DNA from: Bolinopsis microptera
Taxonomy: Eukaryota > Ctenophora > Tentaculata > Lobata > Bolinopsidae
Reading direction: 5' to 3'
DNA length: 64,000 bases
Assembly: GCF_026151205.1 (NCBI RefSeq)
Contig: NC_087077.1
Location: 7,989,983 to 8,053,982 of the forward strand
Below are positions 8,042-51,069 of the stretch, piece after piece. The translations under genes were made by a program, and so were the position numbers. Under the pieces are notes generated by a model. That model worked only from the letters and a program-made list of their open reading frames with translations, had not been told where the DNA came from and ran no database searches. Position 1 is the first letter of the stretch. Every line of letters begins with the position of its first letter.

Positions 8042-9070
8042 AAGTGCTTAGGTCCTTTATTGTTTGTCATTTTTATCAATGACTTGCCTGATTGTATTAA
8101 TGGTATATCAAAACTGTTTGCAGATGATCTTAAAGTTATTATGGATGCCAATGACACTGAAAGCACTTTCAATATGTTAGAAAGCTTGCAAAACTGGCAA
8201 AATGTGTGGCTGTTAAAGTTTAATCCTAGCAAATGCAAAATAATGCATGTTCCATTTAATGAAAATCCCCTTCAAGAATATGTATTTAGTGGTGTTACAC
8301 TTGAATGTATTGAAGCAGAGAAAGATCTTGGAGTTTTAACTTCTTCAGATTTGAAATGGTCGAAACATATTAAAAGTTGTATTAGTAAAGCAAACAGTAT
8401 GATTGCATGGGTTACAAGGAATCTCATTATAAGAGAAATTAATGTTATGAGAAATGTTTATAAAACTATAATTAGACCCCACTTGGAGTATTGTGCTCAG
8501 TTGTGGTCTCCACCTGCCTGCCATGGGAATTGGGCTACTATCATTGAACTGGAAAATGTCCAGAGAAGGTTCACACGCCTTATTGATGATATTGGAACAC
8601 TTCCTTACAGTGAAAGGTTGGATGCCTTACAGATTACAACACTCGCAGAGAGACGGGTTAGAGGAGATTTGATTGAAGCCTACAAAATTGTAAATGGATT
8701 GGTTGAGTATGGAAAAGATATTTTCAATTTAAGTAGATCGGGAGATAAAATTGTTAGCACTAAATCTAACAATATTGATAGAAATATTAAAACCTTGTCT
8801 AATAATTTTCTATCAGAGCGTGTTATCAGCTTTTGGAATAAATTGCCATCTTTTGTTAGAAATTCAGTGTCTGTTATTGATTTTAAAATTAATCTAGAAG
8901 AATTTAAAAAGACTAATAATTTAGTAGACACAGGCAACTTTTGGGAAGTGTCAAATATAGTTTTAGCAAAAATAGAGGGTGTAAATTATATCGAAAAGAA
9001 GAAGCAACAAGTCCAATATTTATATAAAAATCCTCGTGTTGCCAAGAGAAAGGGAATTAATATCTCATGA
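8042..9070 (+). pseudogene. LINE ORF2 fragment: C-terminal half of reverse transcriptase
   Basis: About 342 codons, open throughout. RT motif C is present as FADD (codons near 8115-8126), followed by thumb-region signatures shared with the LINE at 40843-42212: EKDLGV, WSKHI, ISKANS, WVTRN, RPHLEYCAQLW, the NWATIIELENVQRRFTRLI stretch and ERRVRGDLIEAYK. The N-terminal zinc/APE domains and RT motifs A and B are missing because of 5' truncation, so the copy cannot transpose by itself. The absence of internal stops suggests a fairly recent insertion. Translation would need an upstream start; there is no in-frame ATG at the 5' edge. Confidence 0.85.
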
Positions 9071-22808: not shown

Positions 22809-25104
22809 TGTGTCTGAGTGGAGTTGGGTTAAAAACATATAAGAGATACGATGATTTAACTTGTAGAAGCTTTCAATAAACATGTGTTAATCGTCGTCAG
22901 CTGAATGTGATGTGGTGGACAATGCTTATATGTGATTGAGTGGTGTCAGGGATGGAGGGTGGGGGAGGTGTGGGTGGGAAAGTGAAAATTACAGTACAAT
23001 GTCAATAAAAATTTAGTCTTCTGTTGAGGTTGAGAAGGAAATGCCAGATGGTCTGGACTTTAAGGATTTGGCAATTTTAGGAAGAATGGGGTCCCAGAGG
23101 GAACTACATTTGGGTGCGCGGTCTGTTCTGTTCATAGCTGGTTGTCGTATTTGTATAGCTGCGTGTTCTGTGAGGTCAAGTTGGGAGCGTGAGGTGAGGG
23201 ATTTGAGGACTTCGATGTTGTTCCAGGAGATGGTGTGGCCGGTGGTCAGGGCATGATGTGCAGGGGCTGATTTGATTCTGTCTGTGGATTCGTCGATGGC
23301 GTTGTTGAGTCTGTAACATCGTTCGTGTTCTTTCATGCGGTGGACCAAGGGTCTGTAGGTCTGTCCGGCGTATTTGGAGGGGCACTGTGAGCAGGAAATT
23401 TCGTAGATGGTGTTGGGAGTGAGGTGAGTAGGGGGTGTGGTCTTCGTTTTGGTGAGGAGGTTGCGGAGGGAGGTAGCAGAGGAGTGGGTGACTTTGATGT
23501 CGTGTTGTCCGAGTATCTTGGAGATGGGTTTGGATAGGGAGGGATGGAAAGGAAGAGAAACACTAAGGGCATGTTCACGGGTCTGTCGGTTGAATGAGGC
23601 TAGGGATTGGTGGCGAGAGGGGTTGGTGAATTTCCGTTGTACTTCGTCCATGATGGTGGTGATGCGGTGAGGAGGGAAGCCGTTCTGGAGGCAAACGTGT
23701 CGTACTGTCTGGAGTTCGTCGTCAAGGTGTTGGGGTGAGCAGATGTTGTGGGCTCTTCTGGTCAGTGATCGGATGACTGCGTTCTTAGATGAGTTGGTGG
23801 TGCAGGAGGAGTACTTGGTGTAGAGGTTGGTGTGGGTGGGTTTTCTGTAGACTGATGTGGATTTGTCAGGGTGGATGAGAACGTCAAGGAAGGGTATAGT
23901 TCCGTCTGTAGAGGGATGTTCTTGGGTAAAGTTGAGGTCTTCAGTAAGGGAGTTAAGGAATGTAAGGAAGGATTCTGCGTGGTTTCTGTCTCTGAAAGAT
24001 CCAAGGCCGTCGTCAACGAAATGGGAGTAAGTGTTCGGAGGGTCAGGACATGAGGATAAAGCTAAGGTCTCGATTTCAGCAAGGCGGATTTCAGCTAGTT
24101 CAACAATGAGGGGGGATCCCATTGTACCACCTTCGTCTTGGGAGTAGAAGGAGCCGTTGAATTCAAGGTATGAGTTGTCAAGGCAAAAGTTGATAAGGGA
24201 GCCTATGGTGGTGGTGGTGACATTGGAGGGAAGACGAGAGGGGTTCTGTTCAAAGGAGGAGATGACAGTTTTGAGGGATAGGCGCATGTCACAGGAGGTG
24301 TACAAGGATTGGACGTCTAAGGAGGCGTGGTAGTGGAAGGAGGGATTGAGAGAGGAGTCGAAGCGATGTTTGAAGTCGGAAGAGTCTTTGAGGCGTAAGG
24401 GGTTCTGGGCTAGGGGTTTGAGGAAAGATGCGAGGACTTTGTGGAGGGCTTGGAGGGGGGTGTTGTAGAAGCTGACTACGGGACGGATAGGTGCGCCGGG
24501 TTTGTGTATCTTAGGTTGTCCGTAAAGTTGAGGCCATCTAGGATGTAGGTTGCGCATCTTGTGGTATAGGTCGGTCGTGATCTTCTTGTCGGTGTGTAGT
24601 TTCTTGAGGACTTTCTGTAGTTTAGTGGTAACGGATTGAGTGGGGTCTTTCGTTAAGAGGGTGTAACTACCTGAGGATAAGTGGTCGGTAACTTTGGTTA
24701 TGTATTGATCGTGAGTCAGTACAACAGTGGCGTTGCCCTTATCAGCAGGTAGAAATTTCAATTCAGATTTCTTAGACTTTAAAGATTTAAGAGCGGTACG
24801 TTGTTGTGGAGTCAAATTGTCGGTGGTCATGTCACGTTTATTGTCAAATTTAGATAATACAGAGGTGACCTGATATGTGGCTGAGGCTTCCATGCCTTCT
24901 CCTAGTTGTTTAGTGATATTCTGTATGAGGGGAGCCAGGTCGGGGGTAGGATCTGAGGTGGGTGTCGGGACGAACTTCAGTCCAAGGGAGAGGACGTCAG
25001 TTTCAGCTGTGGAGAGGGTCTGTCCAGAGAGGTTGATCACTGTTTTGGCTGTGGTGTCTTTCTTGGGGGTAGGTGAGGTCTTGAGGAGGGGACCATGTGT
25101 CTGA
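22809..25104 (-). mobile_element. Penelope-like element with 9-bp target duplication
   Basis: TGTGTCTGA flanks the element on both sides (22809-22817 and 25096-25104). The undisturbed site with a single TGTGTCTGA is at 28776-28784 in the twin 227-bp repeat, so the insertion boundaries (22818-25095) are certain to within a base or two. The element lies on the minus strand and encodes a long RT plus GIY-YIG frame. The open frame runs right to the 5' boundary without an ATG, so the copy is 5'-truncated. The 3' region is 195 bp (22818-23012). No paired pLTR is visible. Confidence 0.92.
23013..25095 (-). CDS. Penelope-type reverse transcriptase with GIY-YIG endonuclease
   Basis: About 693 open codons, stop at 23013-23015. 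Residues here are counted from the GTG at 25038-25040. Near the N-terminus it has the family's L-S-x-x-E-x-x-x-L-x-x-G-L-K-F-V-P-T-P signature (about residues 9-27) and LPADKGNATVV (97-107). The RT core follows: GQPKIHKPGAPIRPVVS (174-190), motif A with D242 in LDVQSLYTS, TMGSPL (306-311), and the catalytic FVDD (341-344). The C-terminal GIY-YIG nuclease has IYEISCSQCPSKYAGQTYR (545-563) with the usual CxxC before YAGQ, Arg 563 and the catalytic Glu 625. The domains are complete and free of stops, so the protein may have been active recently, but the 5' end is missing. It primes reverse transcription at target nicks made by the GIY-YIG domain; this role is known for the family. Confidence 0.92.
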
Positions 25105-25153: not shown

Positions 25154-25184
25154 GTTGGCAAACCTATGTCTCAGGTTTGCCAAC
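25154..25184. repeat. 12-bp inverted repeat at the LINE 5' junction
   Basis: GTTGGCAAACCT, a 7-nt spacer ATGTCTC, then AGGTTTGCCAAC: a perfect hairpin at the very start of the element. It could be a templated inverted duplication made when the cDNA joined the target, or a genuine structured RNA end. Confidence 0.9.
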
Positions 25185-28061
25185 AGGAGACAGGAGGAGA
25201 TTGATAAGTTGGTCATTGAGAGGAGAGTGCTGAGGAGGAAAGCCAGGAAAGCTTGTTCCCAGTCTGTAAAGGATGGTTTCAATGCTTTGCTTAGAGGCCT
25301 GGCAGAGAAGCTGTGTAAGTTGAGAAGAGCAGAGGCAAGGAGGAAGAAGCAGAGAGAAGTGAGGAGACAGAGAGGTGGGTTTACTCGAGATCCTTTCAAG
25401 GCTATTAAAGGTATTCTTGAACCAAGCCCTGTGGGAGAGTTAAAGTGTAGTAAGGAGGAGTTAGACAACCACCTGTCTAATACGTATAGTGATGCCAGTC
25501 GGGCAGTTCCTCTTGGCGTTCTGAATGGGTTACCTGAGGCAGCTCCTAGCCCAACTGTGGGGTTTGACAGCAGGAATATAACCAAGAAGGAGTTCGAAGA
25601 GGTTGTTAAGAAAGCCAGAGGTAAGAGTTCACCTGGTAACAACGGCATCCCGTATACGGTGTACAAGAGGTGTCCAGGAATATCTCAGAACTTGTGGCAT
25701 GTGCTGAGAGGAGGCTACAAGGCTGAGGAGTACCCAGACAACTGTAGGTACTTTGAAGGGATCTACATTCCTAAGGCGGATGGAGATTTTGGACCCAGCA
25801 CAGGACGTCCTATATCGCTAGGAAACATTCAGGGGAAGATATACCTCGCTGTGTTGGCGAAAAGATTAACCAACTTTGTTGTCGCTAACGGGTATGTGGA
25901 TCTCTCTGTGCAGAAGGGTGGAGTTCCTGGTGTACACGGATGTACAGAGCACTTTGGAGCTATGTGGGAGGTGCTCAAAGATGCTAGAGTTAAGAGAAAG
26001 GATCTGAGTGTTGTCTGGTTAGACTTGGCGAATGCTTACGGGGCTGTTCCACATTTACTTATTGTGAAAGCACTCCGCTTCTATCATATCCCCGAGAAAG
26101 TTATCAACATCGTTATCAAATACTTCTCGGAAGTTTACGGAAGATTCTCCTCTAAAACAGTGACATCAGAGTGGCAGCAGTTCGAGATAGGAATATTTAT
26201 GGGCTGTGTCATCTCGGTGATCTTGTTTGTGCTATGCATGAACCTTTCTGACGAGTACTTGAAGATGAAGGTACCCAGGAGTGTCGAGTACATTAAGGAT
26301 GGAACAGCTATACCACCCCTTAAGCTGTTTATGGATGATAGCTGCCTTACCACGGCTAAAATGGTAGATATGCAAACCCTGCTTGATGTTTATCAGGAGT
26401 TCGTTGTGTGGTCAAGGTTCAAGCTTAAGTCGTCTAAGTCTAGGGCACTAGTCTACCAGAAGGGAGTGACAGTGGAGTGGGTTGTAGAGAGTTCAGAAGG
26501 TAGTCAGGCGAGGTTGCAGCTTAGCGGGGAGGTGATCCCGAATGTATCTGAGAAACCAATCAAGTTTCTAGGGAGGTGGATTCGGGCAGAAGGAAAGGAC
26601 AAAGCTATAATCGAGAAAACACACGAGGATCTTGTTACATACCTCAGTAGACTCGATCTTAGCTCCCTCACCGGCCTGCAGAAATGTTGGGGGTATCAGT
26701 ATATGGTCCTTCCAAAGATGAAGTGGCCACTTGCCATTTATGATATCCCGATCAGCACTGTTTCTCGCTGGGAGCAAACAACTAACAGTCATCTCAGAAA
26801 ATGGCTAGGAGTGGGACACACGCTTAGTAGCTCTTGCCTGTTTAGTCATTCATCCAGTGTTGCTCTCCCCATCGACAACCTAACCGACACTTGGAAAGTA
26901 GAAAAGTGCCGTCTCTTGCAGTCATATCAAACATCTCAGGATGCTTTGATCAGAGCGGTGCAACCCCAGGTGCGGTCTGGGAGAGTTTGGAAGGCAGATG
27001 CTCAGCTTCACGAAGCTGAAAGAGACTTGGTGTGTGAGTCAGTGCGAGGTATGGTGCAACCTCTTAGTAGAGCGGGAATTGGTTTCGGTGATTGGAAGAA
27101 GCCCTGGGAGAAGATGTCAGAAAAGGAGCAGCAGAGGGAGGTGTTGGATAGGGTTAAGGAGAACATCAGGAAGGAAAGAGAGGTGCAGTTGGGTACGTTG
27201 GAGATGCAGTCCAGGTGGGGTAATTGGAGAGAGCTGGTGACAAGGACTGACATGAGCTGGCACACGCTCTTCAAGTATGGGGACTCATTAATCGGTTTTC
27301 TGCTTAGTGCTGTGTATGGCACGCTTATTACACCAGCTTTAGCATCCAAGTGGAGCGAGGATGAGGATGGGATGTGCAAGCTGTGTGGTGACAAGTTGGG
27401 AACTGTGCCGCATATTCTGGCTGGTTGTCCTGTGGCACTAAGTCAAGGGAGATACCGATGGCGCCACGATAAGGTGCTTAAACAAATAGCAGACCAAGTG
27501 AAATTCCATTGTGAGCGGAGAGTCAACAAGAGGAAGAGCTCTTGTGTCACTCGGAAAGCCATTGAGTTTGTTCCAGCAGGAGGGAGGTTTAAGGAGGTGA
27601 AGAGGTCGAAAGTCAGTGAGTTTGGGATTCTGAGTGGGGCCACTGATTGGATAGTATTAGCAGACCTGGATGAGCAGCTGAAATTCCCGTCGGATATAGC
27701 AACGACCAGATTAAGACCAGATTTGGTTCTTTTCTCGAAAGCTTCCAAGAGAGTAATCTGGTGGGAGCTTACAGTACCGTCGGAAGAGAGAATAGCTGCA
27801 TCCCATGAGCTGAAGCTTGATCGGTATAACAGTCTACAAGCGGAAATACAAGCTAATGGGTGGTCATGTTTCAGCTTTGCTGTTGAGGTTGGTGCTAGAG
27901 GTGTGGTCGCAGCAAGTTTGGAGTGTGCATCAAGGAAGATTGGTCTGACTGGGAGAGCCCTCAAGAAGTTGGTCAGAGATTGTGGGAAGGATGCAGCCCA
28001 TTGTTCAAGATGGATTTATCTGCTGTCTAGGAAAAGAGAGTGGGAGATGAGAGCTGTTTGA
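25155..28061 (+). CDS. LINE polyprotein: RT, CCHC zinc knuckle, restriction-like endonuclease
   Basis: 968 open codons counted from a TTG (no ATG start; 5'-truncated), ending TGA. It has a basic N-terminal region (1-80, many R/K), then RT: GRPISLGNIQGKIYLAVLAKR (217-237), motif A with D290 in VVWLDLANAYGAVPH, an unusual motif B GIFMGCVISVILF (346-358) in place of G-D-P-L-S-P, and motif C FMDD (392-395) in place of ADD. The C-terminal part has C741-x2-C744-x8-H753-x4-C758, the zinc knuckle found in RLE-type LINEs, then a PD-(D/E)xK-like core with R854-P-D856 and E871 in WWELTVPSEERI. This architecture matches the R2/R4/NeSL/HERO group, but RT motifs B and C are atypical. I recall similar MDD-type RTs being widespread in cnidarian and fish genomes, though I cannot place the clade. 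It would nick DNA with the RLE domain and prime reverse transcription there. Confidence 0.85.
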   Translation: MANLCLRFANRRQEEIDKLVIERRVLRRKARKACSQSVKDGFNALLRGLAEKLCKLRRAEARRKKQREVRRQRGGFTRDPFKAIKGILEPSPVGELKCSKEELDNHLSNTYSDASRAVPLGVLNGLPEAAPSPTVGFDSRNITKKEFEEVVKKARGKSSPGNNGIPYTVYKRCPGISQNLWHVLRGGYKAEEYPDNCRYFEGIYIPKADGDFGPSTGRPISLGNIQGKIYLAVLAKRLTNFVVANGYVDLSVQKGGVPGVHGCTEHFGAMWEVLKDARVKRKDLSVVWLDLANAYGAVPHLLIVKALRFYHIPEKVINIVIKYFSEVYGRFSSKTVTSEWQQFEIGIFMGCVISVILFVLCMNLSDEYLKMKVPRSVEYIKDGTAIPPLKLFMDDSCLTTAKMVDMQTLLDVYQEFVVWSRFKLKSSKSRALVYQKGVTVEWVVESSEGSQARLQLSGEVIPNVSEKPIKFLGRWIRAEGKDKAIIEKTHEDLVTYLSRLDLSSLTGLQKCWGYQYMVLPKMKWPLAIYDIPISTVSRWEQTTNSHLRKWLGVGHTLSSSCLFSHSSSVALPIDNLTDTWKVEKCRLLQSYQTSQDALIRAVQPQVRSGRVWKADAQLHEAERDLVCESVRGMVQPLSRAGIGFGDWKKPWEKMSEKEQQREVLDRVKENIRKEREVQLGTLEMQSRWGNWRELVTRTDMSWHTLFKYGDSLIGFLLSAVYGTLITPALASKWSEDEDGMCKLCGDKLGTVPHILAGCPVALSQGRYRWRHDKVLKQIADQVKFHCERRVNKRKSSCVTRKAIEFVPAGGRFKEVKRSKVSEFGILSGATDWIVLADLDEQLKFPSDIATTRLRPDLVLFSKASKRVIWWELTVPSEERIAASHELKLDRYNSLQAEIQANGWSCFSFAVEVGARGVVAASLECASRKIGLTGRALKKLVRDCGKDAAHCSRWIYLLSRKREWEMRAV

Positions 28062-29840: not shown

Positions 29841-32132
29841 AGAAGGAGGAAGACTGAGGAGAAAGAGGAGGACTGAGGAGGACTGAGGAGGAGGAGAAGG
29901 ACCGAGGAGGACTGAGGAGGAGGAGGACTGAAGATGAGAGGGAGGACTGAGGAAGAGGAGCAGGATTGGTGAGAAGGAGGAGGAAAACGAGAAGGAGGAG
30001 GACTGAGGACGGGGAGGAGGAGGAGAAGGACTAAGGATGAGGAGGACTGAGGAGGAGGATGAGGACTGAGGAGGAGGAGGATAAGGAGGAGAATGAGGAG
30101 GAGGAGGAGGAGGAAGACTCAGGAGGAGGACTCAGGAGGTGGAGGAGGATGAGGAGGACTGAAGAGGAGGAGGAGGAATGATGAGGAGGAGGAGGACTCA
30201 GGAGGAGGAGGAGGACTGAGGACGGGGAGGAGGAGGAGGACTAAGGACGAGGAGGACTGAGGAGGAGGACGAGAGCGAAGATGAGGAGGAGGAGGACTGA
30301 AGAGGAGGACTGATAAGAAGGAGGAGGAGGAGGAGGTGGAATGAGGAAGAAGACTGAGGATGAGGAAAAGGAGAAGGAGGACTGGGGAAGAGGAGGACTT
30401 GGGGAGGACTGAGGAGGAGGACTGGGGTAGGACTGAGGAGGATGATGAGGAGGAGGATGATGAGGAGGAGGACCGAGGATGAGGAGAAGGAGAAGGAGGA
30501 CTGGGGGAGGACTGATGAGGAGGAGGACTGGGGGAGGACTGATGCAGATGAGGAGGAGGACTGGGGGAGGACTGAGGAGGAGGAGGACTTCGGAGTAGAA
30601 GGAGGAAAAGGAGGAGAAGGAGGAGAAGGAGGAGGAGGAGGAGGAGGAGGAGGACTGACGAGGAGGAGAAGGACTGAGGAGGAGGAGGAGGATGAGGAGG
30701 AGGAGGACTGACGAGTAGGAGGAGGACTGGGGACTGAGGAGGAGGACTGAGGAGGAAGAGGATGAGGACTGAGGAAGAGGACTAGGGAGGATGAGGAGGA
30801 GGAGGACTGAGGATGAGGACTAAGGAGGAGGAGGAGGAGGCTGAGGAGGAGGGGGACTGAGGAGGAGGAGGACTGATGAGGAGGAGAAGGAGGAGGAGGA
30901 CTGAGGAGGAAGAATGAAGAGGATGAGGACGAGGATTAAGGACGAGGATTAGGAGGATGATAACGAGGACTAAGGAAGAGGACTGATCAGGAGGAGAAAG
31001 AAGAGGAGAAGGAGGAGGAGAAGGAAGAGGAGGATAAGGAGGAGATTGAGGAGGAAGAAGAGGAGGATGACTCAGGAGGAGGACTAAGGAAGTGGAGGAG
31101 GATGAGGAGGAGAACTCAGGAGGATGACTGAAGAGGAGGAGGAGGACTGACGAGGAGGAGGAGGAGGACTCAGGTGGAGGAAGAGGAAGAGGACTAAGGA
31201 CGAGGACGAGCATGACTAGTGGAGGACTGAGGATGATGACTGATGAGGAGGAGAAGGAGGAGGACTTAGGAGTAGGAGAAGGAGGAGGAGGATGAGGAGG
31301 AGGAGACTGAGGAGGAGGAGACTGAGGAGGAGGAGACTGAGGAGGAGGAGGACTGTTGAGGAGGAGGAGGATGATGAGGATCAGGACTGAGGAGGACTGA
31401 GTAGGAAGACTGAGGAGGACGAGGAAGAGGACTAAGGACGAGGAGGAGGACGACTGAGGAGGAGGAATGATTAGGAGGAGAAGAAAGAGGAGAAGGAGGA
31501 AGAGGATGAGGAGGAGGAGGAGAACAAGGAGAATGAGGAGGAGGACTGGGGGAGGACTAAGGAGGAGGATAAGGAGGAGGAGGACTAAGGACGAGGATGA
31601 GGACGATTATGAGGAGGACAGAGGATGAGGACTGATGAGGAGGAGGAGAAGGAGGAGGACTGGGGAGGATGACTCAGGAGGAGGATGAGGAGGACTCAGG
31701 AGGAGGACGACTATGAGGAGGACTGAGGAGAACTGATGGGGAGGAGAAGGAGGTGGAGGATGAGAAATGAGGATGAGGAGGAGAAGGACTGGGAGTAGGA
31801 CTGAGGAGGAGGGGACTGAGGAGGAGGGTAAGGAGGACTGAGGAGAAGGACGAGGAGGAGGACGAGGAGCCAGGAGAAGGAGGAGGAGGATGAGAAATGA
31901 GGATGAGGAGGAGGAGGAGAAGGAGAAGGACTGGGAGTAGGACTGAGGAGGAGGGGACTGAGGAGGAGGGTGAGGAGGACTGAGGAGAAGGACGAGGAGG
32001 AGGACGAAGAGCCAGGAACAGGACTGAAGAGGACTCAGGAGGAGAAGGACTCAGGCCCAGGAGGAGGAAAACTTAGGAGGAGATGGAAGAGGACTGATGA
32101 GAAGGAGGAGGAAGACTAGGGAGGAGGAGGAC
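29841..32132. repeat. 2.3-kb polypurine GGA/CTGAGGAGGA block
   Basis: One strand is almost entirely purine (GGA, GAA, GAC and TGA words), built on irregular units such as GACTGAGGAGGAGGAG with a C and T in each GACTGA unit. Higher-order repeats are visible, for example two long near copies at about 31760-31990. Apparent open frames (Glu/Asp/Gly-rich or Pro/Ser-rich) are by-products of the repeat and not genes. Such tracts can form triplex (H-DNA) structures. Confidence 0.95.
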
Positions 32133-40842: not shown

Positions 40843-42212
40843 CGATGCAAAGCCTATGAGAAGCTTCTTAGGGAGTATATTCTCGATGGTGTTGAACAGG
40901 TGCTTAGTAGCACGCAGCACGGCTTCATGAAGGGTCGGTCATGCTTATCTAACCTACTGGAGTCTATTGACGCTGTCAATGACTTGCTGGCTGAAGGTGG
41001 CTGTGCTGATATATTATACTTTGATTTCTCTAAGGCCTTTGATAGCGTACCACACCACCGTTTATTAGTTAAATTAAGAAATGTTGGTGTTCCTGAGGAG
41101 ATAATTGGTATTTTAGAAAACTTTTTAGTAGGGAGGTCTATGAAAGTTAAAGTAGGAGATGAATTTTCTGAGATTAAGTATATACTTTCAGGAGTGCCCC
41201 AAGGCAGTGTTTTGGGACCATTGCTCTTTCTTTTATTTGTAAATGATCTTCCAGAAGGAATCAAAGCTATCATCAAACTTTTTGCTGATGATGTTAAAAT
41301 GATTTTTAATCCTTTTATTAATCGAACAGCTGATTTAAGTTGCTAGAACTTTGGGAGTCTCGTTGGTGTTTAAATTTTAATGTAGATAAGTGTATGGTCA
41401 TGCAAATTGGTTCTTGTAATCCTAAGAATCAGTACTTGTTTGGTGGTGTGCCTTTGAGATGTGTTGAAAGCGAGAAGGACCTTGGAGTTGTCTTTAACAC
41501 CAGCTTCAACTTTGAGGGTCATGTGAGAAAGTGCATTGCTAAAGCTAATAGTACCATTGCCTGGCTTACAAGAAATATTATATCGAGGGAGAAAAGCGTT
41601 ATGCTGGGCTTGTATAAGTCTTTAGTAAAGCCTCATATAGAGTATTGTTCACAGGCATGGGCTCCAATGGCTAGGCATGGAAACTGGTCACTGATTCTTG
41701 AATTGGAAGGTGTTCAAAGATCGTTCACCCGTATGATTGATGGATTGGGACTCATGACGTACAGAGAGAGACTGGATAAGCTGAACCTCACAACCCTGCT
41801 TGAACGCAGGGTTCGTGGAGATCTCATTGAGATGTTCAAGATCCAGGAAGGCTTTGTGGGTTATGGTTCCGATTTATTTGGTCGTTCTGGTAGGACCGTT
41901 GCTGCTAGATCAAAGACTCATAGATTCACCACAAATGAGACTGATTTCTTTGCCCAAAGGGTCTTGCGCTACTGGAACAGTCTACCACCACTTGTGAAAG
42001 CTAGTGAGTCAGTTACTGGTTTCAAGAGGGGATTAGATGCCTTTCGGCTTCATGGATATCGAGCTAATAAGCTTGGTCATCACTGGGAACTTTCATATGA
42101 CATCTTTGATAGGATAGATGTGTCTGTGTCTAATAGGAATAGTTATGTAAGTTATATGAAAGATAATCCATTGGTAGCTAAGAGGAAGAAGGTTAATATC
42201 AAAGGTATTTAG
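40843..42212 (+). pseudogene. LINE reverse transcriptase, one frameshift
   Basis: The first frame (40843-41345) holds QHGFMKGRSC, motif A in DILYFDFSKAFDSVPHHRLL, motif B in GVPQGSVLGPLLF and motif C FADD. It ends at TAG 41343-41345. The second frame takes over near 41340 (LLELWESRWCLNFN..) and runs to a stop at 42210-42212 with EKDLGV, WLTRNI, KPHIEYCSQAW and FTRMIDGLG. A single small indel near 41330-41340 explains the break. The N-terminal zinc/APE part is missing. All catalytic RT residues are otherwise kept. Confidence 0.85.
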
Positions 42213-42710: not shown

Positions 42711-43245
42711 CTTACAAGTATCACTTCATTGTAGTCCGGCTTCCCCCTATCAATCTGTCCTCATCATATTCAAAAATTGTTGTAAATTTTAACTGTCGAT
42801 ATAGTTTATAACATTACATAAGATGGGTATGATTTATTTGTTACTTGGACAACAGGCTCATATCCTAATATAACTCACATTATTTTGTCACTGTTCGAAT
42901 TATTCTAGAAGGTTCAATTGCCTCCAGTTGAAGGCACAAGAAACTGCTCACAAGATTTGAAGATTTGATTTTTCAGAATGAGGTGGACAAGTTGTCTTTT
43001 TCCTTGCAGATCAGGCCTTCTAAAAATTTCCTCTTTCACCATAAATATCCTCTCAAATCCAAAATGTCCTCCCAGTCAGAATTTCAGACTAAATTAATGG
43101 ATTTATCACATTACCTTAACTAATTTAATCTTCATTTCATATATCTACATTTTATCCTGATTCCTGAATTTGGTCAAATGATAATCTACATAAGTTGCCT
43201 CATATTCATTGATTGAAATACAGGGTTTAAGTTAAATTCATAATA
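42711..43245. other. Unassigned DNA
   Basis: No gene recognised. Ends at the TA (43244-43245) that precedes the mariner-type TIR. Confidence 0.35.
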
Positions 43246-43509
43246 CAGGGTGGGCCAAAAGTCAGTACCCATACGTTCACTTCTCAAACATTTTATTACA
43301 TTATGTTGTTATCTAGTCTTGCTGCTAAATAGATAAGCCGACAGTGCAGCAGCTCATCGTGACGTGGCTTAAACGCTAATACTACGCACACTGACTACAA
43401 CACTACAGATAACAGAGACCCCTAGGCTCGGTGGCCCCAATTTAATTGGGCCCCTCCTTCCACATAAGTCCACCGTAGCCCTCCTTGAAGCGTAAGTTTA
43501 CCTTTCTAC

Positions 43510-45102
43510 ATGACTGAATCGACGGAACGCCCGTTTTGTTTCTCAACTGCAACCTGCTTGGAATTGGTCGATAAACTCATTGTACCTCAACTCGACCGTG
43601 AATTGCTGCTCTTTGGAGCGACTGAAGATGACCTTCAGTTATGCAAGCAATCCAAGCAGAAAATGCTACGTGCACACATTCTTGACAGTCATAAGTGTAC
43701 CTCTACATTAACCGAAACTACTGACAAACTTATCTCTCTAACTCAAATTTTTTCGAGATCATCCACTGATGCGATGACCGGCCTCCAGAACACCGTTAGT
43801 GAAGCACAGTCCCTTGTCCAGTCTCTACGTGACCATTCTGCTCACCCTCCTACTCAACCTACAACCACCCTCCCCGAAATACCTGCACCACCAACACCGG
43901 TCCAGACTGTGGAACAGCCCTTCTCCAAGCTCGAAACTGGTGACCAGCTGAAGAGGTTTGACTTTAAGAGATTGGACTCTGAATTAACCTATGATAAAGT
44001 TTTCTCGAATAGAAAGGTTGCATATTTTGGTGATGCTCCTTACAAGTATTTAGGAGGGTACCACAGGGCAAAGCAATTAGACCCTGAGACGTACCTTGCT
44101 GAAATACTTGTAGCAGTTGATGATGTGTGCAAGACCAACAACATCAACTATAAGGATTTCAATAGCTGCATGATCACCAAATATGAATCACACGTCTCGT
44201 GTATACCTCCTCATTCCGATGATGAATCGTGTATAGTACCCGACAGCACTATACTTACCATTTCCCTGGGGGGTAAAAGGGATTTAGTTTTTCGTAGACG
44301 TCCTCCAGGCGAGTATCGCGATGAAACTGTGACAGTTCAACACGGCGACTGTTACACTATGACGCGAAAATCGCAGGACCTTTTTGACCATGCTGTTCCT
44401 CCGCAAACTCAGGCGGATTTTGAAGGTCCTCGAATCAGCTTAACCTTTAGACAGTTGGCCTCGGCACATTCCAGAAAATCTAGCAGCCATCAGCTGCGAC
44501 CTCTACCCCATCATAAAGTGAACCAGACCAAACGAGTGCTGATACTGTCTGACAGCAAAAACTGTAATTTTGACTGTTCTCAATTTCGTTCACCTGTCAT
44601 AGCGTTCCGGGAAAACTTATTTTTCCTCCGCGACTTAAAGGAACACCGGGAATCGATTCAGCAAGCCGACATTGTACTCATAAGTGCTGGCATAAACGAT
44701 ATCCAGAAAAACAGAGCGAGTGCCGTCCTGCTGCATAATCACATCAGAAGTTTCATAGAACAGTTCCCGCGCACTATGTTCTTATTCGATGCAGTCAGTC
44801 CACTATCGATACATGCTGACCGATTCAACACCCACAACGACATTATCCAGTACCTTAATGAACTCATGTTTAAGTGCTCCCTTCACCATGACAACTTCAG
44901 ACTCTTCGACAACTCAAGTTTTAGTCTCGCTCACCTCGCTCGTGACGGTCTACATCTTAACTATATTGGACAGAGTGTATTATCAGATTGCTGGGTAAAC
45001 TGTGTGCTCATTGGACTGGGGTTCAGGCGTGGACCCCTACCTCTACGTGAGCACTTTAAACGTATGATATCTTATCCAATCCCTGGCCACTTTGGCACCT
45101 GA
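43510..45102 (+). CDS. LINE ORF1: AlkB-like dioxygenase fused to SGNH esterase
   Basis: 530 aa from ATG 43510. Residues 1-110 are helical/coiled with no known domain, and 111-140 form a Pro/Thr-rich linker. Residues about 150-316 match AlkB-type Fe(II)/2-oxoglutarate oxygenases of the plant RNA-virus kind: FGDAPYKYLGGYH (173-185), FNSCMITKY (217-225), the iron ligands H235-x-D237 in PPHSDDES, DSTILTISLGG (245-255), the second His 294 in DHAVP, and R308/R314 in PRISLTFR that bind 2-oxoglutarate. Residues about 340-500 form an SGNH hydrolase: LSDS with S349 (block I), GIND 394-397 (block III) and the D479-G-L-H482 catalytic pair (block V). Esterase-type ORF1s are known in CR1-like LINEs; an AlkB domain is not, to my knowledge. 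No RRM or CCHC. A role could be reversal of methyl damage on element RNA or cDNA, which is inference. Confidence 0.88.
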   Translation: MTESTERPFCFSTATCLELVDKLIVPQLDRELLLFGATEDDLQLCKQSKQKMLRAHILDSHKCTSTLTETTDKLISLTQIFSRSSTDAMTGLQNTVSEAQSLVQSLRDHSAHPPTQPTTTLPEIPAPPTPVQTVEQPFSKLETGDQLKRFDFKRLDSELTYDKVFSNRKVAYFGDAPYKYLGGYHRAKQLDPETYLAEILVAVDDVCKTNNINYKDFNSCMITKYESHVSCIPPHSDDESCIVPDSTILTISLGGKRDLVFRRRPPGEYRDETVTVQHGDCYTMTRKSQDLFDHAVPPQTQADFEGPRISLTFRQLASAHSRKSSSHQLRPLPHHKVNQTKRVLILSDSKNCNFDCSQFRSPVIAFRENLFFLRDLKEHRESIQQADIVLISAGINDIQKNRASAVLLHNHIRSFIEQFPRTMFLFDAVSPLSIHADRFNTHNDIIQYLNELMFKCSLHHDNFRLFDNSSFSLAHLARDGLHLNYIGQSVLSDCWVNCVLIGLGFRRGPLPLREHFKRMISYPIPGHFGT

Positions 45103-45932
45103 GCACGACGTATTTTATATCTTAATGTCAAATTATCATGACAAAAATATCGAATCCTGAACAACTTTCCAGACTCGCGCTGAGTTGCAAACAATTTCAC
45201 TAATCAAACAAACGTAACTTATTTGAACAAACTATTACTATATTACTAAATTTTTTCGTCATTTCAAATAAAAATTAGAAACTTAAATCAAATTCAAACT
45301 CAAGCACAAAGCACATAATACAACCAACTACTTAAATGAACTTTTCCCTTATCCAGATTCCCTACCTTCTCACCTTATCTATCACACCTTATCAGCAAAA
45401 CGCGAAATAAACCCTGCTTGATAATAGTCCACGTCCCTACATCATAACAATCATTTCATATTATCTAATTCCTAACCTCATGCCGTACTCAGACAACGAC
45501 GACGCAATATTTACACGATATCTACACAGATAATACACAGTACTCATTATACATACATCACACATTACTGTACATCTGACTCTGTACATTTGACTGATCT
45601 GTACATTTGACTCTGTACATTTGACTCTGAACATTCGACACATACATTACTGTACATATGGAAATTAGGCTCATGCACGGTGAGCTGCTGCCATCAAGTA
45701 ATAGAAGAGAAGTTAAAGGTCAATCATAAAGGTAAAGGTGAAGTTTACTTAATTACTGTAGATAAGTCACGGTACTTTCTACACACAGGACTGAAAGTCT
45801 TCGTTAGAAGTATCTGACTAGGTCACGTTATTATTATCATATTTTGTATTAATAGTAAGTCTATATACTCTCTTAAATATATCATAATATAACTATAATA
45901 CTAACGAATATAATACATTATCTCATAGTTCT
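45103..45932 (+). other. Inter-ORF region of the LINE
   Basis: 830 bp without a long frame. Tandem TGTACATTTGACTC units lie at about 45585-45640. ORF2 must be reached by internal initiation, splicing or a separate promoter, since the gap is far longer than usual between LINE ORFs. AT-rich just before ORF2. Confidence 0.6.
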
Positions 45933-48900
45933 ATGAACGAATCTCAGCATTGCAACAAATGTAATACACGTATTCCTAAAGCACGTTCGTTCCTAATTTG
46001 CAGTCACTGCGACAAAATAAAACATATGAAATGCATGAAGTTATCTAAGTCTGAGGCAAAAATAATTGTAGATTCTGGCTCTGCCTGGATATGTTATGAC
46101 TGTATTTCCAGCGCCTTACCAGTAAATGCATGCCCCTCGGCAAAGCCACCGAGACAAGGGCCCGTCATAGGTCCTAAATTTAAAGTTCAATGCACATGCT
46201 GTAATGGCTGGATTTACTCCCCCGCCAACCTGAAAACCTGCCACTGGTGCGAATCTAAAGTACATACCAAATGTCACTCCGACTTATTAGGATGCAGAAA
46301 CTGCTGTGAAAATATGATCCCGGGATACTATGTACATTGCTATCAGCTATACTCATTACATACACATACTCACACCGGCATAATCCACAATCCCTACGAT
46401 CGCTATCAGTTGATTAACGAAATAGGAAATACAATTGACCAAGATCAGGAACTCGAATATTGGAATGAGATTTCTGATATTTTAGTTAGCTGCAATTACA
46501 TGGAGCCGACAAATGTAAGTTCGTCAGGAGCATGTGATCTTAAGATATTTACCTTAAACATACGGGGACTTCTTAAAAACGTAGACAAATTAAGAGAAGA
46601 TATATTCACGTACTCGAAGTATGATGTCCTTTGTTTTAACGAGACTAATCTCTTGCAGGATAAGCTTCCTAATGGTATTAATGACCTAGTGCTTGAGGGA
46701 TTTTATGAACCACTGTTACGAGATCCAATATGTAGTTCTGGTCGTGGTGGGGGTTTAGCAATTTATATCAATACGCGCGTATGCGAGTCTGAAAATATTG
46801 AAAAATTCTTTCCCCAAAACTTTGATGTGACAGACAAGAGTGGTGAATTCATGTTGGTAAAACTCCATAACTGCAAAGGCTTTAACAAAACAAAGATAAT
46901 CGTCAATATATATCGGTCACCAGCATCAAAAAATCCTGATAATTTTAACAAACTCATTGACTCCCTATTACACGGCATGGAAAGGCACTCGAGAAAACAT
47001 ACTATATTAGTCGGTGATTTCAATGTAGATCTTACACATTATGATACTGACAAACACTGTCAAAATTTGATTGAAACTATGACTAAATACGGTTTCTTTC
47101 AGCTAGTCTCACGTCCCACACGTATCACTGATCACAGTGCCACTCTTATAGATCATGTTTACAGCAATAATGTACAACACACACACAGCTGCAATGTTCT
47201 TACTGTTGACCTGTCTGATCATCTAGCCACTCTTGTTACTATCTCACTTGGGCAATACAGCCACATTGCAGGGAGTAGAAACAAACGACACAGAGTCGAC
47301 CATGGAATGAATGTTGAAAAACGTATGTTTAACGAGTCGAACAACCTTAAATTTATAGAATTAATTGGATCCGAAATGTGGGAGGAAGTCACACGTGAAA
47401 ATTGTGCTGATGAACAATATAACAAATTTATTGAAATATACGGTCAGCATTATGATGAGGCATACCCAGTGAAAACCAATCATGTGCGCCGCAAATTTGA
47501 AAGGCAGGACCCCAAACCTTTTATGCTACCCTGGCTTGAAATTGCATGTGCTCGTAAAAACAAATTATTCCATGCCAAAATAGTGGACCCAACGGAGGAA
47601 AACTACAAGGCTTACAAAAAGCATAAGGCATTCTGCGACAAGCACGTCAATAAGGCAAAAGACAAATACTACAAAACACAATTTGATAAGTATAAAGATT
47701 GTTCAAAGAAACAATGGCAGCTGATCAACACTCTACTTGGCAGAAAATCTAAATCTCATAACAAAATTAAACTCCAAAACGCCGACGGAAATATCATAAA
47801 TAGTGACAGTGATGTAGCTGAGCACTTTAACTCTTACTTCTCCAACATTGCCACAAAAATCAAAGATGCGATCAGCGCGCGTACTGTATTCGATCCAGGG
47901 GGTTTTAAACATTACCTTAGCAGCCCAGCTTCGCAGTCTATGTTCGTAAGACCAACTACCGAAAGTGAAGTTGAACAAATTATTAGCAAGCTTAAGAATA
48001 AATCCACTCAAGACACTAAAATTGAACCCCTAAAAATGGTAAAAGACTGCCCCTCCTTCTGTAAAGTCTTGTCCATAATCATTAACACATCATTTAGTCA
48101 AGGTATCTTCCCATCATCTCTCAAAATAGCTAAAGTTATACCAATTCACAAAGGAGGCAGCAAATCCGACGCCACTAACTATCGACCCATATCTTTGCTG
48201 TGCACCTTTTCCAAATTGTATGAAAAACTTATGCATAATAGAGTAATGGACTTCCTTGACAAGAAAGGCTCGCTCTTTGAAGGACAATATGGCTTCCGGC
48301 CAGGCCGATCCTGTGAGCATGCTCTTTTGGATGCTCAACACACGATTCTGAATTCCCTTGCCAAAAAGGAAGTTGCTCTATTACTCCTAGTCGACTTTAG
48401 TAAAGCTTTTGACGTTTTGTCTCATGATGTATTGATTGACAAACTCCAGCACTATGGAATCCGTGGGCAAGCTTTGCAATGGTTTAAATCCTACCTGAGC
48501 ACACGTCAGCAATATGTATGTTTGAATGGTATTAAATCAGCTCTTAAACCTATTACATACGGAGTTCCACAGGGCAGTATTATGGGACCTTTGTTATTCC
48601 TAATCTACATCAATGATATGCCAAATATCAACAGTATGATAAAGTTTATACTCTACGCTGATGATGCAAATATCATAATAAAAGGCAAAAATGCAAACGA
48701 TGTTATACAAAAATTCAACCAATTCTCCCACGAGTTTGTACGCTGGGTTGACTGTAATGGACTTGCACTTAATCTAAAAAAGACCTGCTATATGCTTTTC
48801 GGTGTTAGAAATACTGATAATACTCCAAATATTCATATTGCAGACACACAATTAGAACGTAAGAGGGAAGCACGGTTCCTTGGCGTTATAATGGATGATA

Positions 48901-49592
48901 AACTAACATGGTCTAAGCATATAGCAGCTGTTAGATCAAAAATGATGCGATATGTAGGAATTATGTATAAAATAAAACGTCACCTATCGATTCAAATAAG
49001 GCTACAGATATATCAAAGTTTTGTTCAATCGCATTTAAACTTCTGTTCAATTGTATGGGGGTTTGCAGCAAAAAATCACATTGAATCACTCTTCTCACGA
49101 CAAAAACAGGGTATCAGGGCAGTAATGCCAGGTCACATTAATTACTTTTACAAAGACGGTCGACTGCCAGAACACACAAAACAATTTTTCAATAACAATG
49201 GTATACTCACGGTGCACAGTGTTATTGTAAAAAACACACTAATTCTCATGCACCGAATCAAACATTTCCGCAGCTCAGTCCCTCAACAAATCTGTATGAC
49301 TATCCCAGAAAATGCACCCACTGCAAACTCAGATCACGTGACTGCAGCATCCTGGTTAGCCGAGTACAACACCACACATTTCAGATCTTCGATGTTCTTC
49401 AAAGGACCTTTACTCTCAATTTATGCTGTAAATGCAAATGTAAGCACCCTACCCACACTTTTTTCCATAAACCTTTTTAAATCGGCTACAAAACGCATGC
49501 TCTTGAACCTGCAGAGTGAAAATGACGATGACACGTGGCCCAGTTTCTTATTACATAATATTCCAGGTCTAAGAAGGTCACAACGTGTCTGA
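45933..49592 (+). CDS. LINE ORF2: zinc fingers, APE endonuclease, reverse transcriptase
   Basis: 1219 aa from ATG 45933. The N-terminus has a canonical PHD-type C4-H-C3 finger (C7, C10, C23, C26, H31, C34, C54, C57) and a second zinc module (C87, C90, C103, C106, H111, C114, C121, C124). The APE endonuclease spans about 202-440, with N209 in LNIRG, E237 in FNETNL, IYRSP (326-330), D362/N364 in GDFNVD and SDH 428-430. The RT follows, with YRPISLLCTFSKLYEKL, LVDFSKAFDVLSHDVL (motif A), GVPQGSIMGPLLFLIYIND (motif B) and catalytic YADD (908-911). All catalytic residues are present and no frame breaks were found. CR1/Jockey-superfamily type. PHD fingers are normally reported in ORF1 of such elements; here one opens ORF2, so the domains seem redistributed. 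Confidence 0.93.
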   Translation: MNESQHCNKCNTRIPKARSFLICSHCDKIKHMKCMKLSKSEAKIIVDSGSAWICYDCISSALPVNACPSAKPPRQGPVIGPKFKVQCTCCNGWIYSPANLKTCHWCESKVHTKCHSDLLGCRNCCENMIPGYYVHCYQLYSLHTHTHTGIIHNPYDRYQLINEIGNTIDQDQELEYWNEISDILVSCNYMEPTNVSSSGACDLKIFTLNIRGLLKNVDKLREDIFTYSKYDVLCFNETNLLQDKLPNGINDLVLEGFYEPLLRDPICSSGRGGGLAIYINTRVCESENIEKFFPQNFDVTDKSGEFMLVKLHNCKGFNKTKIIVNIYRSPASKNPDNFNKLIDSLLHGMERHSRKHTILVGDFNVDLTHYDTDKHCQNLIETMTKYGFFQLVSRPTRITDHSATLIDHVYSNNVQHTHSCNVLTVDLSDHLATLVTISLGQYSHIAGSRNKRHRVDHGMNVEKRMFNESNNLKFIELIGSEMWEEVTRENCADEQYNKFIEIYGQHYDEAYPVKTNHVRRKFERQDPKPFMLPWLEIACARKNKLFHAKIVDPTEENYKAYKKHKAFCDKHVNKAKDKYYKTQFDKYKDCSKKQWQLINTLLGRKSKSHNKIKLQNADGNIINSDSDVAEHFNSYFSNIATKIKDAISARTVFDPGGFKHYLSSPASQSMFVRPTTESEVEQIISKLKNKSTQDTKIEPLKMVKDCPSFCKVLSIIINTSFSQGIFPSSLKIAKVIPIHKGGSKSDATNYRPISLLCTFSKLYEKLMHNRVMDFLDKKGSLFEGQYGFRPGRSCEHALLDAQHTILNSLAKKEVALLLLVDFSKAFDVLSHDVLIDKLQHYGIRGQALQWFKSYLSTRQQYVCLNGIKSALKPITYGVPQGSIMGPLLFLIYINDMPNINSMIKFILYADDANIIIKGKNANDVIQKFNQFSHEFVRWVDCNGLALNLKKTCYMLFGVRNTDNTPNIHIADTQLERKREARFLGVIMDDKLTWSKHIAAVRSKMMRYVGIMYKIKRHLSIQIRLQIYQSFVQSHLNFCSIVWGFAAKNHIESLFSRQKQGIRAVMPGHINYFYKDGRLPEHTKQFFNNNGILTVHSVIVKNTLILMHRIKHFRSSVPQQICMTIPENAPTANSDHVTAASWLAEYNTTHFRSSMFFKGPLLSIYAVNANVSTLPTLFSINLFKSATKRMLLNLQSENDDDTWPSFLLHNIPGLRRSQRV

Positions 49593-50585
49593 AAGTTACT
49601 GGACACAACGGTCATTATATCAGTTTAGTGAATTAGTTAATTAGTTAATTAGTAAATCAGTTATTAGTCATATGGTTATTATTAAGTACTATATATTATA
49701 TTATATGATATTACAAAAATAAACTATGAATATATATTTGCACACAAAAAAACCAGAACAAACTGATCACAGACTAGCGGCAACTAATATTAATGGATAA
49801 GCCACACATCCTAAATTCCAGGTCCATATTTACACTGCCACATTCCCCACTATCACTATTTTCTCTATCAGCACAAACCGTAATTAATTTATTTCAACAA
49901 TCACAAACACTACATATCCAAACTAATGGCATGGCATAGCAATATCTACGATATCCTAAATCAGTCCCTAACAAACTTAGCGCGAGTCTGAAAGGCTGTT
50001 GGAAGCACAGAGTGCTCCATATTTTGTTTTTATCAATAAAATTTTCTTTTTTTTCATTTTCTTTTTTTTTAAATAAATTTATTAACTGCGTGCAAATTTG
50101 TGTTTCAGATTTGATCTATTTATGATATATATTTATGATTATGTAATAAAGTTATTAATATTATATTCGTAAACATTGGCTGGCTTACAAACCAGTCCCC
50201 AAACAAACAAACGGGTCTTACACCACCGCCGTGTTTTAAAATTTGATTTTTGGGGGCCACACCCAATCAACATTGAATTGCTTTTACTGGTGTTTGTGAA
50301 CATGTTAGAGACTCCGTTGTAACATATTACAATAGGTCATTTAATTCGGAATATAATCTGAAAAGATGGTGCGAAACGGATTTAAAATGACGAAGTTATC
50401 AAGCAATTTGTTTATCTCGTTAGCAAAATTGATTGAGTACTCAATGATTACCCAATTACGACACCATAATTGGGCTCCCTGCACCGCTCCCATAATGCGG
50501 ATCTAGCCTAAACCCAATCATCTGATCACACGTAGTGAACAAACTCGTTATGCGTCATATATCGGTCATCTGAGACGCTAGAACT
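49593..50585. other. LINE 3' UTR and left-over mariner MITE interior
   Basis: No coding frame. The LINE probably ends before about 50180. From there to 50585 the sequence is unmatched elsewhere in the window, and may be MITE interior or further insertion. Confidence 0.4.
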
Positions 50586-50614
50586 CTAATTTTTTCAGGA
50601 CAAACGTAATTTAA

Positions 50615-50803
50615 ATGGCCAAACACCATTCAATAAAATTTTGCTCGATCCGACTATTCAAACTATCAACTAAATGCGAAAATGAACCTTCACTTGAAAA
50701 AAATGAACACTCGAATATGTTTCGATTTGACAAATTCCTCGAACCAGTGGTGGTAGTAAGTCATACCAGAAAGAATTATTTCAATTGGGCACTCAGTGAC
50801 TGA
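50615..50803 (+). other. Short open frame in the mariner-like MITE, not a gene
   Basis: 62 codons from ATG, conserved in position in the copies at 35.1 and 36.3 kb but disrupted there. No similarity to mariner transposase ends was seen. Most likely a by-product of the repeat. Confidence 0.3.
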
Positions 50804-51069
50804 GCTAAGGCCAACGTATGGGTACTGACTTTTGGCCCACCCTGTATGTTTATGTTTGCCAATAACATTGCAGTGAAATTACCATTCATATCCTTCAATC
50901 ATCAAAATATAAAGTAAACTGTTCCTTTAATACTTTTATTTTGATATCTAAGTACCCTAATTGTGATGCTTGTTCCGTAAACAACCCTTATTTCATGATA
51001 GTTAACTTATGTCACATATTTGATAAGTTTGAATTTAAATTTTTTCACAAATTTTAGCTGTTCTCAGTG

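Follow-up and report, generated by a model that had tools for sequence, protein, structure and literature searches.

Long interspersed nuclear elements (LINEs) of the CR1 and L2 groups, e.g. zebrafish ZfL2-1, have been described with an esterase-type (Type IV) first open reading frame (ORF1) (PMC3905857, PMC4120745), which is among the closest known counterparts of the one reported here. In the present work a LINE was analysed in a 64,000-nucleotide stretch of the Bolinopsis microptera genome (C6:7989983-8053982; "the window" means this whole stretch), the ORF1 of which encodes an AlkB-like dioxygenase joined to an SGNH domain. Here AlkB precedes the esterase, while neither AlkB nor a dioxygenase appears in the main text of the two papers on the Type IV ORF1. 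The nearest precedent for a retrotransposon encoding its own AlkB-family enzyme is the Ty3/Gypsy elements of Phalaenopsis orchids (PMC9289625). Those are, however, plant elements with long terminal repeats (LTRs) and carry an ALKBH5-like demethylase of N6-methyladenosine (m6A) in a separate ORF, whereas the window LINE is a non-LTR element with an ALKBH2/3-like AlkB fused with SGNH in ORF1, and many families are present.

Two other cases are comparable in part. The upstream ORF of Symbiodinium LINEs likewise gained a nucleic-acid-modifying enzyme under purifying selection (PMC5890265), but this is a cytosine methyltransferase (DNMT) in a dinoflagellate, and the main text of that paper contains no AlkB or dioxygenase. 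Lepidopteran TRAS LINEs likewise carry an additional nucleic-acid enzyme, a viral RNA helicase domain, in their ORF2 (PMC5563155). Among the best-ranked matches of the open-access literature none dealt with AlkB in a LINE or a Helitron (subscription papers, preprints and Repbase/Dfam lie outside this search), and a paper on bivalve transposons does not mention AlkB. Within these limits the AlkB-bearing LINE ORF1 is undescribed and adds a variant of the LINE ORF1.

The two domains of ORF1

The features of ORF1 are the following.

43510..45102, + strand: LINE ORF1, 530 aa, with a helical N-terminus, AlkB and SGNH (open frame found here; at least ten full-length genome copies, the window's own included)
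43708..43836, + strand: long helix, possibly a coiled coil, predicted with low confidence for ORF1 residues 67-109 (AlphaFold2 model, DSSP helix 67-109; predicted local distance difference test, pLDDT, of the block ~45-68)
43981..44463, + strand: AlkB domain, a 2-oxoglutarate (2OG)-Fe(II) dioxygenase, residues 158-318; Fe ligands H235, D237 and H294, 2OG arginines R308 and R314, lesion-contact equivalents Y178 and E239 (Pfam, fold model, residue conservation)
44515..45024, + strand: SGNH hydrolase-like domain, residues 336-505, with S349, G394, N396, D479 and H482 (Pfam, conservation, model, profile search)

An earlier note, made from the DNA letters alone, had placed an HxD motif (H235/D237), H294, R308/R314, S349, a G-x-N-D motif (G394/N396) and D479/H482 in this frame, and all of them were found at these positions. 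The profile search and the structure prediction of the 530-aa ORF that it had proposed were carried out. In Pfam, 2OG-FeII_Oxy_2 (PF13532) matched residues 176-314 with 70.3 bits against a cut-off of 31.2 (E=3.2e-19). Lipase_GDSL_2 matched residues 384-488 of the window protein alone below its curated cut-off (E=2.3e-4). A profile of this second domain, built from 13 ORF1 sequences, recognised a solved SGNH protein resembling platelet-activating factor (PAF) acetylhydrolase (E=8.5e-7), with the Ser and the Asp-x-x-His blocks aligned.

The AlphaFold2 model of ORF1, based on an alignment of 15 sequences, had a mean pLDDT of 72.6 and a predicted template modelling score (pTM) of 0.40, most of the AlkB and SGNH parts being modelled with high confidence. 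In the comparison of this model with the PDB by Foldseek, residues 158-318 were found to have the AlkB fold, matching human ABH2 (3rzh, E=3.4e-15, target template modelling score, TM, 0.73) and ALKBH3 (8jnk, TM 0.70); ALKBH5, with 15-18% identity, and E. coli AlkB were weaker matches. All of the best 50 rows were of the AlkB type and no SGNH-type match was among them. When the SGNH domain was modelled alone, the pLDDT was 86.0 and the pTM 0.83.

An AlkB-like dioxygenase joined to an SGNH domain was confirmed for ORF1. The former possesses the HxD...H iron site, the R...R 2OG site and the fold of the AlkB family (PF13532), and the latter, with its Ser, Gly, Asn and Asp-His residues, places the protein in the Type IV (esterase-type) class of ORF1. 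A PADLOC match to CARF_2OG (E=6.6e-10) was also obtained; it was not adopted as an identity, since it indicates 2OG-oxygenase likeness alone.

S349, G394 and N396 were invariant in all 13 aligned SGNH sequences and H482 in 12 of them, the thirteenth row ending before this residue; in a set of nine sequences all four residues were invariant. The claim of a complete SGNH triad in the same frame stood for the window ORF1, but the Asp has been lost in four related families: Asn occupies the position of D479 in families G, H and I (loci L032, L033 and L034) and His in J (L044), with Ser, Gly, Asn and His kept. In these proteins the esterase may be altered or may rely on a catalytic dyad.

Copies, related families and a probable Helitron

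The 264.65-Mb assembly (232 contigs) was searched with ORF1 (81 matches scored among 788 candidates) and with ORF2 (38 among 6983). At least ten ORF1 copies, that of the window included, cover residues 1-530 at 99-100% identity on seven large contigs. Twelve loci of the window family (the window and L009-L019) were selected by their ORF1 match and examined: AlkB was present in all of them, the full ORF1 in ten, a full-length ORF2 frame in nine, and both in seven. Starting from ORF2, which gives a fairer test, 21 matches of at least 98% identity were obtained among the matches listed, and upstream of 12 of these an ORF1 match reaching AlkB was detected. One had an ORF1 fragment starting past AlkB, and eight were without an ORF1 match among the matches listed; three of the eight begin near the ORF2 start, their 5' truncation lying between the ORFs or just inside ORF2, and five begin inside ORF2. 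For the three the truncation was checked by searching the DNA for the 5' part of the element, which gave 28 matches. Among the 21 close ORF2 matches no copy was seen that retained its 5' end but had cleanly lost AlkB; in one decayed copy, on C11, the AlkB region is interrupted.

The other loci examined keep AlkB, and the genome-wide search did not bear out a one-off capture. A chimera or an assembly artefact confined to the window locus was ruled out by the at least ten full-length copies on seven contigs and by the divergent families described below; the 12 of 21 close ORF2 matches with an AlkB-reaching ORF1 also speak against it, and we regard its chance as practically nil. The element looks recently active, with copies approx. 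1% apart, as the earlier note had proposed from its intact ORF2.

Long open ORF1 relatives were also found at 55%, 46% and ~29% identity. In families B (four loci), C (three) and D (two) an ORF2 of 55-61% identity lies downstream; the ORF1 of locus L023 in family B is 5'-truncated, and there is a stop in the ORF2 of L027 in family D. When ~2.2 kb downstream of ten more loci was read in a survey of the families other than F, endonuclease and/or reverse transcriptase (RT) frames were seen on the same strand in nine (weakly in L057). Downstream of L049 the reading frames are disrupted and include a piece that resembles an RT.

Several N-termini occur in front of the AlkB-SGNH pair: PHD fingers in L042 and L043 (in L042 the SGNH domain was detected by the custom SGNH profile, 3e-9, and not by Pfam) and other types in L040, L041, L044 and L045. 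About three RT lineages are represented among the ORF2s downstream of AlkB-SGNH ORF1s. L046-L048 have AlkB and a long helical region; on visual inspection the start of an SGNH domain is recognisable at the end of L048 only. L046, L047, L048 and L058 are LINEs that combine AlkB and a long helical region with a very different RT.

The genome contains at least 150 places that match the Pfam AlkB model above its cut-off (151 matches, with 150 of the 587 candidates scored). Three of the 150 listed places are host-type ALKBH exons, and at 117 of them AlkB lies in an open frame of at least 480 aa. The window's own copy and further families (~630 and 537 aa) lie outside this list. Many related mobile elements of this genome carry AlkB, mostly together with the esterase.

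AlkB was also detected in a probable Helitron. The frame at L039:3422-9901 (C10:16871000-16880900), of which 2160 aa of an open frame of 3388 aa were read, contains SGNH (6.4e-5, below cut-off), AlkB (4.5e-21), DUF6570 and Helitron_like_N (3.1e-22) in this order, so the two shared domains stand in the reverse of the AlkB-SGNH order of the LINE ORF1. The assignment to Helitrons is based on the Helitron_like_N (Rep) domain rather than on a PIF1-type helicase. The AlkB and Helitron-domain searches met in six long frames (3388, 3321, 3366, 2459, 2225 and 3226 aa). Among the AlkB matches listed there was no row for two further long Helitron frames, of 2176 and 2221 aa (53% identity), and AlkB is apparently not part of every Helitron of the genome. 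A Helitron with a captured SGNH gene is known from platyfish (PMC4021074).

The presence of AlkB in such unrelated classes as LINEs and a Helitron would fit a shared host target, i.e. an enzyme acting on host RNA, DNA or protein and dampening the defence or the damage response rather than acting on the element. The fusion to an ORF1 protein that presumably binds RNA speaks for an action in cis, and we consider a host target improbable.

Active site, relationships and proposed role of AlkB

The nearest solved relatives of the element AlkB are ALKBH2 and ALKBH3. With the single ORF1 sequence the best matches among solved structures were ALKBH2 (4e-9) and ALKBH3 (7e-8); with a profile of 15 ORF1s ALKBH3 came first (1.3e-29), followed by ALKBH2 (8e-23 to 8e-21) and ALKBH8 (2e-7). 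The human enzymes (8jnr, 2iuw, 3rzh and others) have in common with the element AlkBs the fold, the iron and 2OG ligands and most of the lesion-contact residues, among them the equivalents of Tyr122 and Glu175 but not that of Ser125. They are, however, cellular repair enzymes, while the 16 element AlkBs of the main group form a separate clade (99/99).

Twelve positions of human ALKBH2 were mapped in 19 element AlkBs, with L046-L048, which are near copies, among them. Eight catalytic or lesion-contact positions, Y122, Y161, H171, D173, E175, H236, R248 and R254 (ALKBH2 numbering), were identical in all 19. R110 was kept in 18, with Ser in the Helitron, and the position of F124 was occupied by Tyr in 16 and by Phe in three. 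In three of the four bacterial or phage AlkBs compared, Ser stands at the E175 position. Within ORF1, H235, D237, H294, R308 and R314 were invariant in ten of ten sequences, down to ~25% identity. In ALKBH2, E175 and Y122 are reported to bond the amino group of 1-methyladenine (m1A) or 3-methylcytosine (m3C), and the E175A exchange abolishes the activity (PMC12295762).

LINE ORF1 proteins bind RNA and other ORF1 types have an RNA recognition motif (RRM) or similar domains (PMC4120745), so the AlkB fold might be imagined as only a non-enzymatic, gag-like module binding single-stranded nucleic acid. Binding should not need the iron ligands, the 2OG arginines and the lesion-contact Glu and Tyr, all of which are identical in 19 of 19 element AlkBs, and this possibility seems quite improbable to us.

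The selection test proposed in the earlier note was performed by comparing the proportions of nonsynonymous and synonymous differences (pN/pS) among ten copies (45 pairs). The ratio was 0.095 for AlkB, 0.098 for SGNH, 0.84 for residues 1-150 and 0.23 for the whole ORF1; for ORF2 it was 0.23 (nine copies). The AlkB domain, with pN/pS of ~0.1 and invariant iron and 2OG ligands, appears to be under purifying selection. In the comparison between families the pN of AlkB and of SGNH was 0.19-0.40 in eight of nine pairs, with synonymous sites saturated or nearly so, and 0.00-0.01 in the ninth, close pair. The long retention of the sequence and the active site between families constitutes stronger evidence of selection than the pN/pS of the copies.

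The active site of AlkB looks intact in these young LINEs and a demethylase role is likely. Since m1A and m3C hinder reverse transcription and the nearest solved relatives remove them, we suggest that the enzyme demethylates the element's own RNA or single-stranded DNA, and we would give about an even chance to the proposal that in this way it clears the path of the RT. The m1A base was indeed reported to impede cDNA synthesis by a non-LTR (R2) RT, and AlkB treatment, which removes m1A and m3C, raised the capture of most 3' tRNA halves (PMC12140624). According to the model proposed, the ORF1 protein would coat the element's own RNA in a ribonucleoprotein, as LINE ORF1 proteins do in general. 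The AlkB domain would strip methyl groups of the Watson-Crick face (m1A, m3C) from the exposed single-stranded nucleic acid, with the RNA template as main substrate and perhaps the first cDNA strand also, so that the ORF2 RT would not be blocked by lesions. For the SGNH part lipids or membranes might be the target, as has been proposed for other LINEs, or else another ester.

The transposition model for Helitrons involves a single-stranded DNA intermediate. The same cleaning role on single-stranded intermediates would explain a Helitron carrying both domains.

The relatives named above point to repair of m1A/m3C-type lesions, and evasion of methylation would be one possibility. In its specific form, AlkB would erase m6A deposited by the host on the LINE RNA (or N6-methyladenine, 6mA, on DNA) and the element would thereby escape the silencing readers. 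The ALKBH5-like protein of the orchid Ty3/Gypsy elements is an m6A RNA demethylase in vitro, for which an evasion role was argued (PMC9289625), and m6A is among the substrates of the AlkB family (PMC12295762). Against m6A stand the ranking of ALKBH3 and ALKBH2 as nearest by profile, the 15-ORF1 search of solved structures having yielded neither ALKBH5 nor FTO chains up to E=1, the recovery of ALKBH5 by the fold search only, and the retention of the ALKBH2 lesion contacts Y122 and E175 in all of the 19 element AlkBs. Moreover, an RNA m6A eraser alone would not account for the Helitron. The absence of ALKBH5 and FTO is weak evidence because E. coli AlkB is also missing from the profile list; all in all we think that m6A erasure is unlikely.

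Several observations weigh against the lesion-removal model itself. E. coli AlkB, equally missing from the profile list, is a repairer of m1A and m3C. The positions of S125 and R172 of ALKBH2 are variable among the element AlkBs, and the S125A and F124A mutants of ALKBH2 were reported to be without measurable rate (PMC12295762). The copies used for pN/pS were chosen for open frames, and the few variable codons (synonymous/nonsynonymous 12/4 in AlkB and SGNH, 10/11 elsewhere) did not differ significantly (Fisher p=0.18). In the R2 RT study the gain by AlkB was modest for intact tRNA (PMC12140624). The genome also contains ordinary host-type exons, one ALKBH2-like (L035) and two ALKBH3-like (L036, L037). 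Finally, the element AlkBs cluster in a clade of their own that lies next to ALKBH2/3 and inside neither; their substrate range may therefore have shifted.

The AlkB tree was built from 28 rows. Besides the element AlkBs these comprised ALKBH2/ALKBH3 of the host and of humans and four AlkBs from bacteria or phages, but neither E. coli AlkB nor the AlkB of plant viruses. The 15 LINE ORF1 rows and the Helitron were on one side of the 99/99 branch, apart from ALKBH2/ALKBH3 and from the bacterial and phage sequences, and L046-L048 were outside this clade on a long branch. The AlkB of L046-L048 may be a separate capture; two captures were suggested by the tree, but one clade of all element AlkBs was not rejected by the approximately unbiased (AU) test (p-AU 0.30). 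Similarly, the Helitron AlkB was placed among the LINE AlkBs, but a tree with the Helitron outside was not rejected (p-AU 0.18).

The AlkB tree preferred K/M with A-F (90/92). SGNH rejected the grouping of K/M with A-F (p-AU 0.006) and RT that of K with A-D (p-AU 0.0015). AlkB alone draws K toward A-F while RT and SGNH keep it apart, which hints at domain exchange, but an exchange of AlkB between LINE lineages was not significant, as the alternative of A-F with G-J was not rejected for AlkB at 0.05 (p-AU 0.068). The groups for the AU tests were named after the trees had been seen. In the RT tree A, B, C, D, I and J were together (93/93), as were the two PHD types (96/98), and K and the L046 type were far off. 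The branches of these two were very long in this tree, which had human L1 as sole outgroup, and their placement is unsure.

A viral or prokaryotic source of close kin was unsupported: scans of viral contigs (ORF1 and multi-sequence alignment) and of prokaryote genomes, which detect close relatives only, gave no confirmed relative. Distant AlkBs were present in 36 bacterial plasmid records (best Halomonas, 33.5% identity, E=6e-16) and in 16 phage records (best ~30% identity).

As a tentative extension, AlkB and SGNH may represent a mobile two-enzyme cassette for "nucleic-acid cleaning". It would have spread through LINEs of several RT lineages and through a Helitron, and at times AlkB would have been exchanged without SGNH and RT. 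The elements would then possess a dealkylation system of their own because methylation of single-stranded intermediates, chemical or enzymatic, limits transposition in this host. The scale, with at least 150 AlkB places in 265 Mb, mostly within long open frames and in two classes of mobile elements, suggests that selection for the activity has been strong and lasting. If the lesion-removal model is true, it is the natural counterpart of the laboratory treatment of RNA with AlkB for RT read-through of methylated bases, and it makes testable whether m1A/m3C-type methylation of RNA or single-stranded DNA limits the copying of transposons and serves hosts as a barrier. The elements also provide a large natural collection of AlkB sequences.

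The LINE in its MITE and other features of the window

The boundaries of the LINE, its ORF2 and the surrounding miniature inverted-repeat transposable element (MITE) are listed below.

43278..50212, + strand: LINE copy, ~6.94 kb, beginning just after the left arm of the MITE and ending with the CAAA-repeat tail (approximate limits of the matches to other copies; joined flanks realign with an empty MITE copy)
45933..49592, + strand: ORF2, 1219 aa, intact (ORF list, Pfam, genome matches)
45951..46103, + strand: PHD-like zinc finger at the ORF2 N-terminus (PF00628, E=1.4e-4, 22.3 bits, below the Pfam cut-off of 24)
46551..47231, + strand: APE-type (apurinic/apyrimidinic) endonuclease domain (Exo_endo_phos / Exo_endo_phos_2, E=1.4e-12 / 1.6e-10)
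48162..48890, + strand: reverse transcriptase domain (RVT_1, E=6.5e-35)
50200..50212, + strand: 3' tail of CAAA repeats (copy comparison)
43243..43277, no strand: left terminal inverted repeat (35 bp) of the MITE that hosts the LINE, itself outside the LINE (genome-wide arm matches)
50213..50847, no strand: rest of the host MITE, outside the LINE, ending in the right 35-bp inverted repeat (50813-50847) (repeat search and junction alignment)

The ORF2 adjoining ORF1, with its endonuclease and RT domains, proved to be intact as had been claimed. The element is an APE-type LINE: an APE-like endonuclease and an RT are encoded in one ORF, the copies are dispersed, 5' truncation occurs and the 3' tail is simple. 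In eight of the 11 other copies the match starts at 43276-43281 (L010, L018 and L019 begin further in), and in eight of 11 it stops at 50208-50219 (L018 at 50150, L010 and L011 earlier). The flanks of the copies were unrelated to one another by nucleotide comparison. Among the nine other copies with the 3' end shown, the tail was of the CAAA type in seven and poly(A) in two; a 3' tail of short tandem repeats rather than plain poly(A) is a hallmark of CR1/L2 elements. No long direct repeat flanks the window LINE, i.e. there is no LTR. No clear target-site duplication was seen at the window junction in comparison with the empty MITE, and short 5' repeats of element sequence occur at several copies.

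The LINE is nested in the MITE, since the joined flanks match an empty MITE copy and the 35-bp repeats are the MITE ends. The alignment runs across the junction, and over its full length 562 of 715 aligned bases agree. The inverted repeats around the LINE are perfect over 35 bp, and one MITE copy is ~0.77 kb. With at most three mismatches the arm had 443 forward and 463 reverse matches genome-wide (reversed control 0 and 0); this abundant MITE is perhaps mariner-like. The possibility that the 35-bp repeats are the ends of an AlkB-carrying DNA transposon was rejected, as they are the ends of a short MITE (~900 arm matches) with the LINE inside.

Other sequences were also noticed in the window. 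A 675-aa frame at 23013-25040 (- strand) is Penelope-like by eye (RT and a GIY-YIG-like end), with no Pfam match at 1e-3. A 968-aa RT frame at 25155-28061 (+ strand; RVT_1, E=1.7e-16) has a zinc-finger-like CxxC...HxxxxC stretch, by eye possibly of an R2-like endonuclease type. At 14733-15419, 8060-9070 and 40900-42212 there are a fragment of a Mutator-like element (MULE) transposase (E=3.3e-14) and two RT fragments, CR1/L2-like by eye. A 2.3-kb purine-rich array of the (AGG)n type with strong strand skew occupies 29844-32131.

For a fragment of an ionotropic glutamate receptor from this genome the best solved relatives were chains with the name ML032222a, which denotes Mnemiopsis leidyi (E=2e-60, against 4e-31 for the next different molecule). 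In the genome, the glutamate-receptor ligand domain had 32 matches. Since 13 of these lie in open frames of 650-990 aa (e.g. L059-L061), some glutamate-receptor genes of this animal seem to be nearly intronless.

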